Origin: Chromatiaceae bacterium
GTDB lineage: Bacteria; Pseudomonadota; Gammaproteobacteria; Chromatiales; Chromatiaceae
Reading direction: 5' to 3'
Length of the DNA stretch: 32,288 nucleotides
NCBI GenBank assembly: GCA_007693535.1
Contig: REDK01000100.1
Span: forward strand, 1 to 32,288
Shown piece by piece: positions 10-7,984 of the stretch. The notes under the pieces are model-generated. The model had not been told where the DNA came from, made no database searches, and saw only the letters and a program-made list of their open reading frames with translations. Both the position numbers and the translations under genes were made by a program. How positions within the stretch are numbered: the stretch's first letter is position 1; each line of letters begins with the position of its first letter.

Positions 10-1557
<1,548 letters not shown>

Positions 1558-1937: not shown

Positions 1938-2453
1938 GTGCACCTGATCGAGACCCTGCTGGAACGTCTGACCAATCATCTGCCCTGCCGTATCATCGAT
2001 GGCGAGGGCGGCGAGCCCTACCTGGAACGCTATTACCTCGCCGGTCTAGGCGGCTGGCATGCCTATCTTCATCGTTTCGTGGATTCGGACCCGGACCGCG
2101 GGCTGCACGATCATCCCTGGGACCTAGCCCTGAGCCTCATCCTGACCGGCGGTTACGATGAACTGCGGGCCGCCCCGGGCAATGATCCGCCGGTGCAGCG
2201 ACGCACGCGCCGCCCCGGCGGCTTCAACCAGCTGCGCGGGCAGGACTACCATCGCATCCTGTTGCGTGCCGGGCGCCCGGCCTGGACCCTGTTCGTGCAT
2301 GGTCCGCGGGTCAAGGGCTGGGGCTTCGTGCGCGAGGGGATCCATCAGCCGATGGCGGCCTCCGCTGCCGACTTCCGGCATCGCGACTGGTGGCGACAGG
2401 CGCCCAAGGGTCATACAGTACGGACTGAGCGCGCCGCCCGCCCCGCGGCCTGA
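1938..2453 (+). CDS. Small cupin-like hypothetical protein
   Basis: 171 residues starting at GTG; no in-frame ATG is close by. The motif HDHPWDLALSLILTGGY (about 57-73), followed by a second half with HRILL and a TLFVHGPRVKGWGF segment, is the pattern of a small single-domain cupin family often annotated as hypothetical or phage-like. The two His-rich stretches could bind a metal, and this is inferred from the cupin fold. Substrate and role are unknown. It is followed on the same strand, after 213 nt, by the Kunitz lipoprotein gene. The family call rests on pattern recognition of the HDHPW block. Confidence 0.65.
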   Translation: MHLIETLLERLTNHLPCRIIDGEGGEPYLERYYLAGLGGWHAYLHRFVDSDPDRGLHDHPWDLALSLILTGGYDELRAAPGNDPPVQRRTRRPGGFNQLRGQDYHRILLRAGRPAWTLFVHGPRVKGWGFVREGIHQPMAASAADFRHRDWWRQAPKGHTVRTERAARPAA

Positions 2454-2479
2454 ATCCCGCGACCGGAATCCCGCGACCG
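2452..2479. repeat. 14-bp tandem duplication after the cupin-like gene
   Basis: The unit gaatcccgcgaccg occurs twice head to tail (2452-2465, 2466-2479), with a partial third copy (gaatcc) after it. The first copy overlaps the TGA stop of the cupin-like gene. Confidence 0.8.
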
Positions 2480-2615
2480 GAATCCTCCCGTCGAGCACCG
2501 CCCGACTAGACTCGTCGGTCGCGCGGACATCGCGTCGGTGCCACGATGGTCTGGCCGCGGGTGCGGCGGTGAGCATGGCTTGCGGTGCACCAGAACGGCC
2601 CCGCGCCGGCGACCT

Positions 2616-2636
2616 ACCACCCACCACCCACCACCC
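2616..2636. repeat. 7-bp microsatellite (ACCACCC) x3
   Basis: Three exact copies of ACCACCC lie in the leader of the Kunitz lipoprotein gene, ending 30 nt before its ATG. Confidence 0.8.
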
Positions 2637-2666
2637 GCTGGCCCCGCAGCCCCAGGCCCGATCCGG

Positions 2667-2945
2667 ATGTTTCCACGACCCGCCGCCCTGCCCGCCATCG
2701 CCGCCGCACTCCTGCTGAGCAGTTGCGGCAGTACACCGCAGGAGGCCATCCCCACCGAACTGCTCCATGTGAGCTGTCTGCAAGCCCCGGTGACCGGCCG
2801 CTGCGCCGGCGAGACCCCCGGGGCCTGGTATGACTATCGTACCGACACCTGCCGCCCGTTTCCGATGACTGGCTGCGGCGGCAGTGCCCCATTCCGCACC
2901 CTGGCCGATTGCATCAGGACCTGCGGCGCCAAAACTGCGCCTTAG
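2667..2945 (+). CDS. Kunitz/BPTI-domain lipoprotein (putative protease inhibitor)
   Basis: 92 residues. The start is placed at the ATG at 2667 because it opens a lipoprotein signal peptide: hydrophobic AALPAIAAALLLSSC with lipobox LSSC, lipidated Cys20. The mature part is one Kunitz domain with all six cysteines (37, 46, 62, 70, 82, 86). Spacings are 8, 15, 7, 11 and 3 residues; bovine BPTI has 8, 15, 7, 12, 3. It also has the TG-C pair before Cys46, aromatic residues WY at 54-55 (BPTI F22/Y23), the F-x-x-x-G-C block, Phe76 (BPTI F45) and the IRTCG ending (BPTI MRTCG). Expected disulfides are 37-86, 46-70 and 62-82. The P1 residue, directly after the second Cys, is Ala47, which suggests elastase-like rather than trypsin-like targets. 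It would sit in the outer membrane or periplasm. Kunitz domains are mainly animal proteins and bacterial cases are few. Fold call is strong; inhibitory function is inferred. Confidence 0.85.
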   Translation: MFPRPAALPAIAAALLLSSCGSTPQEAIPTELLHVSCLQAPVTGRCAGETPGAWYDYRTDTCRPFPMTGCGGSAPFRTLADCIRTCGAKTAP

Positions 2946-3807: not shown

Positions 3808-4204
3808 GGTTCAGTGGGGCTCCGAAGCGAGAGGTGGGCCGGGCGGGGCACGGCGTCAACGGCGCCGGTTGAACTCCGCTCCGGCCGCTCTTTCTTAGGG
3901 TGTAAGTGACCAGCGACACCTGGGCGTGCCGGGCGAGGTCGGCCAGCATTGGCAGCAGGTGCGCGGCCAGTTGCAGACGCATGCAGGGCGGTTCGCTCGA
4001 CGGCCAGGCCGCGCTGGCGCCGCACCAGCGCAGCTCCATGCGGTCCCGAAGGAAACCTGCGGCACGTCACAACGCTGGAGGAGTTAGGGGCAAATCGGCT
4101 GAAGCGCCGACCCGATGGCAATCGCCTCACGGCTCCAGCCACGCGCGCAGGATCGCCAGCACCCCCCAGCCTGCCACCGGGGCCAGTTGCCGCCGGCTCG
4201 AGCG
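3808..4204. other. Degenerate region between SapC and the macro-domain remnant
   Basis: No intact gene. On the minus strand at roughly 4063-3890 an open stretch (GC-rich third positions; for example AHLLPMLADLARHAQVSLV) looks like a piece of coding sequence, but it is opened by a TGA and runs into less codon-like sequence. I do not recognise it. Together with the neighbouring macro-domain piece it suggests decayed genes. Confidence 0.35.
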
Positions 4205-4396
4205 GCAGATACGGCCGCGGCGGAGCTGCTGCGCGGCTGCTTCGAGGCAACCTTTGATCTGGCCCGGTCGCAGGGTCTGCGCAGCCTCGCCTTCCCAGCC
4301 ATCAGCACCGCCGTGTACGGCTATCCCGAGCGCAGCGCCGCGGCCATCGCGGTGGCCGCGATGACCGCGGCGACGCCCGACTTCGATCGCATCGTC
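4205..4396 (+). pseudogene. Macro-domain (ADP-ribose-binding/deacetylase) C-terminal remnant
   Basis: About 64 codons match the C-terminal half of YmdB-type macro domains: an A-ELLRGCFEATFDLARSQGL helix, then RSLAFPAISTAVYGYP, which is the conserved FPAISTGVYGYP ligand-binding loop, then AAAIAVAAM and DFDRIV. Intact members hydrolyse O-acetyl-ADP-ribose or remove ADP-ribose from proteins. The N-terminal half, with the substrate-binding Asn/Asp region, is absent upstream in any frame. After DFDRIV the usual F-CF strand is scrambled, as if by small indels. In the invariant loop the usual Gly is Ala (STAVYG). The frame stays open to 4765 but overlaps the DUF2934 gene on the other strand. Confidence 0.7.
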
Positions 4397-4442
4397 GCCT
4401 CAGCGGGCAGCAGGCCGGTCCCGCTGCTTCCGGCGGCCGGGG

Positions 4443-5120
4443 TCAGTCCTGCCCGGCGCGGCGGCGGCGCAGCATCTCCTCGACCTCGGCCTCAGCCGCG
4501 AGCCAGTCCTCGTGTTCGTGCCCGGAGGCAAACTGGCGCCGCTCGGCACGGTAATAGGCGGCATCAGCGATCATCCGATAGCGTTCCTCCGGGGTCGGCT
4601 CGTCGCCGGGTGCCCCCAGCTCCACCGCGCGCTCCTCCAGCGGGCGCAGCTCCGAGGGCCGGTCGCGGGCAACAGCCGCCGTCCGCGCAGTCGCGCCGGC
4701 CTGCCTGGGGCTGGTCTTGCGCGTGGTGCGCCTGGCCGCGCTGGCACCGGTACCGATCGCACTAGCCGCCGCCTTAGGCGCGCCCGTACGGGCCGCACCG
4801 GCGGCCGTACTGGCCTCTGAGCCGGCCGCCGGACTGGTTCGCGAACTGGCTCCCGAACTGGCTCCCGAACTGCCTTTCGAGCTGGCCCCTGTTCGGGCCC
4901 TAGCGGTGGCGGCGCCGGACGTGCGCGCCGCGCCCTTGTGGGGGCCGGCAGCCGGCGGCGCATCGACTGCCGCAGCGCTGGCGCGGGCCTTGGTCCCAGC
5001 ACCCCTGGCCGCGGTGGTCTTCTTGGCGGCGGTTTTCTTGGTCACCACAGGGGTACCCGCCGCCTCGGTCTTGATCTGGGCCTTCTTGGTTACGACCTTT
5101 TTCACGTCGGCCATTGTCAC
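4443..5120 (-). CDS. Histone H1-like Ala/Lys/Ser-rich protein with C-terminal DUF2934
   Basis: 225 residues in two parts. Residues 1-150 are low-complexity and basic, with VTKKTAAKKTTAARG-type repeats like histone H1 or AlgP tails, and a Gly/Ala/Ser/Arg middle (GSSGASSGASSRTS, partly from a 12-nt tandem repeat at 4842-4865). Residues about 170-215 (EERYRMIADAAYYRAE...DWLAAEAEVE) match DUF2934, a short helical domain of unknown function. The tail suggests nucleic-acid binding; this is inference. The start is a GTG at 5120 with GGAGG 7 nt upstream; an ATG two codons later (5114) is the alternative. No operon partner. Confidence 0.75.
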   Translation of the reverse strand: MTMADVKKVVTKKAQIKTEAAGTPVVTKKTAAKKTTAARGAGTKARASAAAVDAPPAAGPHKGAARTSGAATARARTGASSKGSSGASSGASSRTSPAAGSEASTAAGAARTGAPKAAASAIGTGASAARRTTRKTSPRQAGATARTAAVARDRPSELRPLEERAVELGAPGDEPTPEERYRMIADAAYYRAERRQFASGHEHEDWLAAEAEVEEMLRRRRAGQD

Positions 5121-5404: not shown

Positions 5405-7984
5405 CTACTCATCGCGCAAGGCCCGCGCCGGGGTCACCTGCGCCGCGCGCTGGGCCGGATAGAGACCGGCAAGCAAAGCGGCGATCCAGGCCAGCAGCAG
5501 ACCCGAGGCCAGGATCCACGGCTCGATGCGCAGTGGCATGGTCCAGCCGAAGCTGCGCAGGTTGATGACCCGGATCAGCAGATCGCCCATGGCCAGCCCC
5601 AACGGGATGGCGAGCAGGCCGGCGGCCAGCCCCAGGGCCGAGGTCTGTAGCAGGATCAGCCGCCCGAGCTGGGCGCGCGTCATGCCAGTCGCGCGCAGCA
5701 CCGCATAATCCCGCGCCCGTTCCAGTTCCAGCGCCATCAGAGCACTCAGGATGCCGACGAAGGCCACCCCGATGGCGAGCAGGCGCAGCACTTTGGTGAT
5801 GGTGAAGGTGCGGTCGAAGACGGTCAACGAGAGTTCGCGGATGGCGCGATTGGTCTGCATGCTCACCGGGGTCGGCAGCCCCGCGAGCAGGTCTTCCACC
5901 GCCGCGACGCTCGCTTCCAGGTCGGCATCGGCGGCCAGCACCAGACCCAGGGAGGTCACCCCGGGATCATCCCAGCGTTCCGCATAGACCGGTCGCGTCA
6001 TGACCAGCATGCCGCTGTCGCTGCCATAGTCGCGGAAGACGCCGCCGACGCCGAAGCGCTGCCAGCCGTGGGCGGTAAACAGTTCGAGTTCTTCGCCGAC
6101 GCCGAGCTGGCGATGATAGGCAAATGGCTCCGAGATCAGCACCAGCTCGCCGGCCTGCCAACGCGGCCAGAGGTCGGCTGCGGTCGCGCCGAGGAACTGA
6201 AAGCCCCGCGGCGGCCCGTCGCTGCCGCCCAGCGCCAGCAGCAGCACCGGGCCGGCGCGGGTCTCCACCCGCCGGCTGCGGCCCTCGCCCAAAGTCTGCA
6301 CCCCGGGTAGGGCTGCCAGCCGGGGTGCCAGGTCGGTCGGCAAGGTTCCGTCGCGTCCCCCAGCGGGCGCATCGGCCGAGACATAGATGTCGCTGGTCAG
6401 CGTATGCGCCAGCCAGTCGGAGACGCTGGCGCGGAAGCTGCCGATCATAATGCCGACGCCGATGCTGGCCGCCACCGCGACCGCCAGCGCTGCCACCGCC
6501 AGCCCGCTGCGGGTGACCGCGGCGGTAATTCCCCGCGCGGCGAGCCGGCCCTCGATACCGAACAGCCGCCCGAACAGCGGGGTGGTGGCTTGCGCGAAGC
6601 CCTGCACCAGCAGCGGCATGCCCAGGCTGGCCCCGACAATCACCAGGAACAGGGCGGCAAAGCCGAAGGTCATCGACCGCCCGGACGCCCCCACCAGGGC
6701 CAGGCCAGCGAGGATCAGCAGCCCCCCGGCCGCGGCCAGCCAGGGCAGCAGGCGGCGTCCGCGCTGCTCTACCAGGGTACGGCGGATCACGTCCCGCGGC
6801 TGCGAGCGGGCTGCCTCCAGGGCCGGCCCCAGCGCGGCGAGCAGGGTCACCCCCAGGCCCAATCCAACCCCTTTGATCAGTGACCAAGGCGCCAGATGCA
6901 GCTGGCGCACATTGAGCTGGAAATAGATGTCGTTGATGGTCTGGGTGACCAGTTGCACCAGCCCGGCGCCGACGATGATGCCGGCCAGACACCCGAGCAG
7001 GGCTCCGATCACGGACAGCACCAGTGCCTCGACCAGCACCAGCAGGAACATCTGGCCGCGGGTGACCCCGAGCATGCGCAGGGTGCCCAGTAAGGTACGC
7101 CGCTGCAGCACCGCGAAGGTCATCGTGTTATAGACGATGAACCCGCCTACCAGCATCGCCAGCAGGCTCATCGCGGTGAGATTGGTCTGGAAGGCGCGGG
7201 TCATCTGCACCAGGGCATTGCTGCGCTGCAGGCTCGGCTGCAGGCGCAGCCCCGGCGGCAAGGCCGCCGCCAGCGCGCTCGCACCAGCGTCGTCGAGGAC
7301 CAGATCGATGTGATCGATCGCATCATCGCGCCCGAGCAGTTCCTGGGCGGTCGCGATGTCGGTCAGTACCAGCCCCTGCAGCCCGGCGCCGTCGGCAGCG
7401 GTCTCCGGCAACAGCGCGACGACCCGCAACGAGCGGCTGGAGCCGGCCAGCGCCACGTCGACCCGATCGCCGACGCCGACCCCCAGGCGGGCAGCGTCGG
7501 CGGCCGCCAGCGCCAGGCTGTCCGGCTCGCGCAATAGGCGCAGCAGCCCGCCGGCGGCATCCGCGGGCGCGCTGCCGGCGCCCCCGGTGAGCACCTCGAC
7601 CGCGGCCAGGCCCGGCACCTGAGCGGCAGCGATCAGGTCCAATCCAAGCAAGGTCAGGGGGCGGTCATCGATGCGGATGGCCGCATCGATCACTGGCACC
7701 GCCTGGCGCAGGCGATGGTCGCGGCGCAGGCTGGCATAGACCGCCGCCGGGATGCGGCCGGAGGCGGCCTCGATGCGATGGGTGGCCGGCCCGGTCACCT
7801 GCGCCACCGAGAGCTGGAAACCACGCCGGGCGCTGGCGTTGGCCAGGTCCACGGCGATCACCACCGCCACCCCGAGGGCAATACCGATGATCGACAGCCA
7901 GGTCTGCCAAGGGTGGCGGGTCAGATAGCGGCGGCTGCTGATCAGCAGGGCTGGGGTCGGACGGGGGATACTGGGCATGGGCAT
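5405..7984 (-). CDS. ABC transporter permease, FtsX family, two FtsX domains (YbbP-like)
   Basis: About 859 residues from the ATG at 7984 (an ATG at 7978 is equally possible). About ten transmembrane segments are visible: one near the N-terminus (WLSIIGIALGVAVVIAV), three in the first FtsX domain (around LLAMLVGGFIVYNTM and VLVEALVLSVIGALLGCL), central ones (LAAAGGLLILAGLALVG and FAALFLVIVGASLG), and the second FtsX set near the C-terminus (LRLLAIGVAFVGILSALMAL and later). Large periplasmic domains follow the first TM of each half. Ten TMs and this length fit the YbbP or AttF/G type of type VII mechanotransmission transporters rather than the 4-TM MacB/LolCE type. The ATPase gene is immediately upstream on the same strand. 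Likely role is extraction or export of a lipidic or periplasmic substrate; the substrate is unknown. Confidence 0.85.
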   Translation of the reverse strand: MPMPSIPRPTPALLISSRRYLTRHPWQTWLSIIGIALGVAVVIAVDLANASARRGFQLSVAQVTGPATHRIEAASGRIPAAVYASLRRDHRLRQAVPVIDAAIRIDDRPLTLLGLDLIAAAQVPGLAAVEVLTGGAGSAPADAAGGLLRLLREPDSLALAAADAARLGVGVGDRVDVALAGSSRSLRVVALLPETAADGAGLQGLVLTDIATAQELLGRDDAIDHIDLVLDDAGASALAAALPPGLRLQPSLQRSNALVQMTRAFQTNLTAMSLLAMLVGGFIVYNTMTFAVLQRRTLLGTLRMLGVTRGQMFLLVLVEALVLSVIGALLGCLAGIIVGAGLVQLVTQTINDIYFQLNVRQLHLAPWSLIKGVGLGLGVTLLAALGPALEAARSQPRDVIRRTLVEQRGRRLLPWLAAAGGLLILAGLALVGASGRSMTFGFAALFLVIVGASLGMPLLVQGFAQATTPLFGRLFGIEGRLAARGITAAVTRSGLAVAALAVAVAASIGVGIMIGSFRASVSDWLAHTLTSDIYVSADAPAGGRDGTLPTDLAPRLAALPGVQTLGEGRSRRVETRAGPVLLLALGGSDGPPRGFQFLGATAADLWPRWQAGELVLISEPFAYHRQLGVGEELELFTAHGWQRFGVGGVFRDYGSDSGMLVMTRPVYAERWDDPGVTSLGLVLAADADLEASVAAVEDLLAGLPTPVSMQTNRAIRELSLTVFDRTFTITKVLRLLAIGVAFVGILSALMALELERARDYAVLRATGMTRAQLGRLILLQTSALGLAAGLLAIPLGLAMGDLLIRVINLRSFGWTMPLRIEPWILASGLLLAWIAALLAGLYPAQRAAQVTPARALRDE

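Follow-up and report, generated by a model that had tools for sequence, protein, structure and literature searches.

A conserved Kunitz-type putative lipoprotein of the Chromatiaceae and its possible role as an envelope-anchored protease inhibitor

The gene at 2667..2945 (+ strand) of the window, by which we mean the whole 32,288-nucleotide stretch of DNA analyzed here, encodes a genuine bacterial Kunitz protein that is conserved and carries a lipoprotein signal. The open reading frame starts with ATG at 2667, stops at 2943-2945, and yields a 92-residue product that matches PF00014, the animal Kunitz/BPTI family (MEROPS I2). What the protein does we infer from computation: with a probability of just under one half, it would be anchored in the outer membrane and inhibit S1 proteases, foreign ones more probably than the bacterium's own, with a loop specificity that has shifted in the genus to which the window belongs. 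A conserved, single-copy bacterial Kunitz subfamily with a hallmark of its own raises the question of where this fold originated. It also provides a candidate protease defence for purple sulfur bacteria and for the lineage of Candidatus Thiosymbion, which are symbionts of nematodes and worms.

A Kunitz domain behind a lipoprotein signal peptide

The signal peptide (MFPRPAALPAIAAALLLSSC; 2667..2726, + strand) extends through Cys20, the predicted lipidation site. It ends in the lipobox LSSC (residues 17-20, 2715-2726, + strand), which is followed by a glycine at position +2. This motif, in-frame behind the ATG at 2667, agrees with the lipoprotein signal read in the preliminary description. A longer in-frame start exists, a GTG at 2538, and we favor the ATG because it yields the signal peptide. 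A tether of 16 residues separates Cys20 from the Kunitz domain (residues 37-86; 2775..2924, + strand), in which the six cysteines at residues 37, 46, 62, 70, 82 and 86 are spaced 8-15-7-11-3, compared with 8-15-7-12-3 in BPTI. Across all six reading frames of the window, this exact pattern is found a single time.

In a Pfam profile search the protein matched PF00014 with 35.5 bits (E 1.2e-8), over the curated cut-off of 21. No other Pfam family matched at E values up to 1, and profile searches of NCBIfam and PHROGs returned nothing for this protein. Using phmmer against the Protein Data Bank, the top chain, which has three domains, was found at E 9.3e-12 and the top single-domain chain at E 4.5e-9. 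The best sequence match of the domain was SmCI (4bd9), from a marine worm.

An AF2 model, generated with 63 aligned bacterial sequences as input, had a mean pLDDT of 79.3 and a pTM of 0.67. Its elements (H17-20, E31-38, E43-50 and H61-68) follow the helix-hairpin-helix order of BPTI. When Foldseek was used to find similar structures, all 50 of the 174 matches listed were Kunitz-fold chains with a probability of 1.00, although the best E value was only 4.9e-4. A VIA comparison with a BPTI variant gave a Z of 6.8, where anything under 8 is middling, and an rmsd of 2.0 over 57 residues. The domain is thus predicted to have the Kunitz/BPTI fold, with an N-terminal turn, a twisted beta hairpin and a C-terminal helix. 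The claim that all six Kunitz cysteines are present was therefore upheld by the spacing and the profile score, and the two checks proposed with it, a Kunitz HMM search and a predicted structure compared with BPTI, both returned a Kunitz domain. The HMM score, the fold and the conservation described below together rule out a chance or artefactual reading frame.

A bacterial Kunitz subfamily

Our next question was how widely the gene is distributed. The genome of the window holds a single PF00014 match. Within the Chromatiaceae the family was detected in 62 of 210 genomes and 17 of 61 genera, always in exactly one copy, and in 8 of 8 genomes of the window's genus, so the search of related genomes suggested earlier did return homologues. 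The remaining 148 family genomes gave no PF00014 match, a number that may include divergent copies missed by the profile (that of genome G001 scores 24 bits); this absence suggests that the trait is dispensable. A sample of 93 genomes that includes the window's own contained 19 with one match. At the level of the phylum the gene is rare, with 2 of 397 other sampled genomes matching (3 of 398 counting our own), and the class sample gave 4 of 369, our own counted. In the class of genome G101, G101 itself was the one match among 48 genomes, and 14 control genomes had no PF00014 match.

Fifteen named records with a copy came to light in a genome scan. They are assigned to Halochromatium (within the Chromatiaceae in the NCBI taxonomy), Lamprobacter, Thiocapsa, Thiohalocapsa, Chromatium, Chromatiaceae and Candidatus Thiosymbion oneisti, and one belongs to an unclassified gammaproteobacterium. 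Cultured strains carrying the gene include Thiocapsa marina 5811, T. roseopersicina DSM 217 and Halochromatium roseum DSM 18859. The lipoprotein signal, the bacterial neighboring genes and the presence across the Chromatiaceae, including strains from culture collections, support the proteobacterial origin assumed from the start.

For comparison among copies we collected 64 contexts, consisting of those of the 62 family genomes together with G282 and G101. Sixty-three of these have all six cysteines, every one spaced 8-15-7-11-3, and three further gammaproteobacterial copies bring the number of six-cysteine bacterial copies with this spacing to 66. The Cys4-Cys5 loop (2877..2909, + strand) has 11 residues in the window, and there is a one-residue gap at this place relative to the animal Kunitz domains in two alignments with PDB chains, all 5 in one and all 11 in the other, the latter leaving out small non-Kunitz fragments of one chain. 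The preliminary description had noted this shorter loop before the fifth cysteine and called it unusual. The loop is indeed shorter, but far from being unusual it is the rule in 66 of 66 six-cysteine bacterial relatives, and such constancy marks a bacterial subfamily. The one context without six cysteines is L066 (genome G490, ~6001-6150, minus strand), which lacks both Cys14 and Cys38 and keeps the other four. The disulfides expected from BPTI are 5-55, 14-38 and 30-51, so the joint loss of positions 14 and 38 is consistent with a single missing bridge and would make L066 a natural two-disulfide variant.

The core of the domain is well kept over the 64 copies (P9 in 61, G12 in 59, D24 in 64, F33 in 61 and F45 in 64), while positions 15, 17, 18, 34 and 39, which lie in or near the contact loops, are variable, as would be expected for an inhibitor. 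What these proteins share with animal Kunitz domains is the six cysteines, the fold, the position of the loop, Gly12, Phe33 and Phe45 and, in most relatives, the P1/P1' pattern. They differ in the shorter Cys4-Cys5 loop, in a proline that precedes Phe45 in 60 of 64 copies and in carrying one domain behind a lipoprotein signal, and the window protein differs further in its alanine at P1. The lipobox pattern occurs in 60 of the 64 copies, the window's included, and none of these 60 has Asp at +2. Under the +2 rule of E. coli, lipoproteins are sorted to the outer membrane when this residue is not Asp, so sorting to the outer membrane would be expected.

In a tree of 67 domains the 62 family copies were split from the five others with support of 100/98. 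The window copy and its seven genus mates came out as sister groups (98/81), and the end branch leading to the window copy measures 1.25. A single branch sets apart each of seven of the ten family genera with at least two rows, the exceptions being g23, g38 and g297, in a tree that was built from 58 columns and bacterial rows only, is midpoint-rooted, leaves 14 forks open and carries a long-branch warning. In all 355 pairs with 0.05 < pS < 0.6, which share ancestry and are not independent, dN was smaller than dS, with a median dN/dS of 0.40. The gene is under purifying selection across the family.

The reactive loop and possible targets

Kunitz loops inhibit chymotrypsin-fold serine proteases by the standard substrate-mimic mechanism. 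In the explanation that we prefer, the lipoprotein would be exported and lipidated at Cys20, and the glycine at +2 would probably direct it to the outer membrane, where the 16-residue tether would display one disulfide-knotted Kunitz domain. Loop residues 11-18 would fit the active site of an S1 (chymotrypsin-fold) serine protease as a tight, scarcely cleaved mimic of a substrate. The likeliest target would be a protease from outside the cell, coming from grazers, hosts or competing bacteria and able to reach the periplasm or the cell surface.

Such a protein would be a tethered counterpart of ecotin (PF03974), the periplasmic or envelope S1-protease inhibitor of Gram-negative bacteria. The presumed protective role, inhibition of S1 proteases in the envelope, would be the same, but the two families are unrelated. 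Ecotin was found in 9 of 210 family genomes, with 0 of 62 among those carrying Kunitz and 9 of 148 among the others, which points towards replacement without reaching significance (Fisher p = 0.06, shared ancestry of the genomes ignored). The genome of the window has no PF03974 match, in a search that was positive for the E. coli control.

The loop of the window copy reads T-G-R-C-A-G-E-T, with Ala at P1 (position 15 in BPTI numbering; 2805..2807, + strand). Over the 62 family copies P1 is Arg in 34, Ala in 6, Ser in 6, Gly in 5, Lys in 4, His in 3, Pro in 2 and Asp in 2, so that 38 of 62 have Arg or Lys, and P1' is Ala, Gly or Ser in 56 of 62. Outside the window's genus the basic residues account for 38 of 54 copies; within it, where P1 is A, S, G, D, S, S, S and S, they account for 0 of 8. 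From the alanine at P1 the preliminary description had argued for elastase-like targets. The residue was read correctly, but it is not conserved even among genus mates, and the elastase argument is not supported in that form, as it hangs on one unconserved residue. In most family copies the basic P1 would suit trypsin-like targets, and the divergence of the loop towards a small or polar P1 in the window's genus would suggest a changed target. These natural variants (Arg, Lys, Ala, Ser, Gly, Asp, His and Pro at P1, and one copy without the 14-38 pair) form a ready series for structure-function work.

Whether every member still inhibits is a separate matter. Val37 in all seven genus mates (7 of 8 in the genus), together with Pro at P1 in two family members, suggests that some members may not. 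The window copy itself keeps all six cysteines, G12, Gly16 at P1' and G37, but has Thr at position 36 (Gly in 52 of 64), Ala21 (F/Y in 61 of 64) and Met35 (Y/W/H in 54 of 64). These substitutions and the end branch of 1.25 count against the inhibitor reading, as do the 148 family genomes in which no match was detected and the middling fold scores (Foldseek E at best 4.9e-4, Z below 8). Judged from its residues, the window loop fits an inhibitor of altered specificity and is also compatible with lost inhibition.

The domain in this genus might accordingly be a non-inhibitory scaffold, either a binding or structural module of the envelope or a protein that is drifting. The eroded loop of the genus would be explained in this way (P1 A/S/G/D, M/Q/R/P at position 35, Val37 in seven of eight), as would Ala21 and the long end branch of the window copy and, in a relative, the missing 14-38 pair beside the loop. 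In animals some Kunitz folds target channels instead of proteases, and such folds are among our structure matches. On balance we find this reading unlikely, since the window copy retains the six cysteines, G12, the P1' glycine and G37, and the gene, retained by all eight genomes of the genus, evolves under purifying selection family-wide.

The target could also be one of the bacterium's own proteases, envelope-bound or secreted, which the lipoprotein would regulate or against which it would protect the cell. The genome has seven PF00089 matches, five of them HtrA-like with Trypsin_2 and four of these five with PDZ, and one S8 subtilase. The other two of the seven, L133 (721-2106, + strand) and L134 (820-2145, minus strand), combine the His and Ser motifs of S1 proteases with N-termini that suggest export (by eye for L133), and L134 resembles the alkaline protease AL20 (E 9e-14) as well as glutamyl-endopeptidase chains. 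They are thus probably S1 proteases outside the HtrA group that leave the cytoplasm, which makes an own target possible and weakens the argument for a foreign one, which is not forced. The alanine at P1 would suit HtrA enzymes, which prefer small aliphatic residues there. However, the P1 residues of the orthologues are mostly Arg or Lys, which HtrA does not favor; HtrA proteases are near-universal, whereas the Kunitz gene is limited to 62 of the 210 genomes of the family; and none of the ten neighbor families scanned against Pfam matched a protease, two of the ten having matched nothing. We regard an own target as quite unlikely, and a foreign S1 protease is still favored because P1 is basic in most orthologues, the presence in the family is patchy and the protein is predicted to be tethered to the envelope.

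Neighboring genes and relation to other Kunitz proteins

Directly upstream lies a gene for a 171-residue cupin-fold protein resembling cysteine or thiol dioxygenases (1938..2453, + strand), separated from the Kunitz gene by 213 bp (2454..2666, + strand). The protein matched PHROG 4786, a cysteine dioxygenase, at E 7.1e-35, and had no Pfam match in a profile search. Its AF2 model (pLDDT 87.5) has the double-stranded beta-helix fold found in cysteine/thiol dioxygenase cupins. Foldseek returned cupin isomerases (E 2.0e-7, TM about 0.45), cysteine dioxygenase (E 4.0e-6, TM 0.55) and also thiol-dioxygenase chains.

This gene occurs in 35 of 210 family genomes, 19 with Kunitz and 16 without. Wherever both are present it lies directly upstream on the same strand (19 of 19, considering ORFs of at least 80 residues), and the conserved linkage anticipated in the preliminary description is real in this part of the family. 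The association is stronger than expected by chance when shared ancestry of the genomes is ignored (19 of 62 Kunitz genomes vs. 16 of 148 others, p = 0.0009). A search that had no positive control found the cupin-like gene in 0 of 5 Kunitz genomes from other families. Of ten Thiocapsa-group loci, nine have a candidate Kunitz start that shares 4 bp with the end of the cupin gene (eight times ATGA, once GTGA), and the gene that precedes Kunitz in the seven genus mates is instead a member of the alpha-amylase family.

The inhibitor model leaves the cupin enzyme as neighbor unexplained. A function in thiol or oxidative-stress metabolism common to both proteins, with protease inhibition secondary or absent, would account for the co-directional pairs, the candidate 4-bp overlaps and the rubrerythrin-like genes (labeled by eye) that lie near Kunitz in 18 loci. 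We find this improbable, as 43 of 62 Kunitz genomes lack the cupin-like gene, 16 genomes have it without Kunitz, and the cupin protein has no export signal by eye.

Taken with the envelope-anchored inhibitor that we prefer, these observations can be joined into a fuller and more tentative account. An old bacterial branch of the Kunitz family, characterized by the one-residue deletion and usually lipid-anchored, would have been inherited mostly vertically in the Chromatiaceae and would occur sporadically in other Proteobacteria. It would serve as a tethered anti-protease shield that replaces ecotin, with the loop retargeted in certain lineages, the Halochromatium group among them, and with co-translation with the thiol-dioxygenase-like cupin in some genera.

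A recent transfer from an animal or contamination of the assembly, which the chiefly metazoan occurrence of Kunitz domains, usually treated as an animal family, and the rarity of the gene elsewhere in the phylum (2 of 397 sampled genomes) might suggest, is highly improbable given a gene tree (of bacterial rows only) that clusters by genus, a deletion common to all six-cysteine copies, and genes with lipoprotein signals and bacterial neighbors in named culture-collection strains, the last of which rule out contamination. We also rejected cargo of phages or plasmids, as no Kunitz relative was found in viral contigs, plasmids or phages, where the query for plasmids and phages was the Kunitz domain of one relative (L024) and the viral-contig search rested in part on one short peptide pattern.

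Apart from the cupin pairing the neighborhood is variable, and other neighbors of Kunitz genes include pyruvate-dehydrogenase-type (by eye), porin, CHAD, ankyrin and transglycosylase genes. A conserved, secreted-looking protein of 257 residues (family F14), which had no Pfam match in a profile search, lies near Kunitz in L084 (5111-5881, minus strand) and nine other loci. In the window the gene immediately downstream is SapC, on the opposite strand. Beside the cupin-Kunitz pair, at the window edge, is a type I restriction-modification HsdM methylase (10-1557, minus strand; PF02384, PF12161). The C-terminal part of a Macro domain at 4115-4765 (+ strand) matches positions 70-118 only of the PF01661 profile (E 5.8e-9) and is apparently a truncated gene remnant.

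Bacterial members of PF00014 are probably auto-annotated in public databases. A literature search covering papers outside subscription returned none that combines Kunitz proteins and purple sulfur bacteria. In the same scope, one paper among the matches listed describes a bacterial Kunitz protein, that of Acinetobacter baumannii F6W77 (PMC11511053). This protein resembles ours in being a Kunitz protein in a bacterium, but has five domains behind a 15-residue signal peptide where the window protein is a single-domain lipoprotein, and its recombinant domains inhibited coagulation factors. According to Table 1 of the paper, residues P2-P2' of its first domain are the same as in the fluke inhibitor Schixator, an identity in sequence from which we suspect that the F6W77 assembly may be contaminated.

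Two further copies have other architectures. L126 (1411-2142), in a 2.0 Mb genome, encodes a lipoprotein-like gammaproteobacterial protein that combines Kunitz with a VWC/pacifastin-like cysteine-rich stretch, an animal-like pairing in which the VWC match (E 1.4e-5, 25.7 bits) is under the cut-off of 27.6. L109 (5992-6177, minus strand), from another class, encodes a Kunitz protein with Gln at P1 and a signal-peptide-like N-terminus without a lipobox, and is probably secreted.
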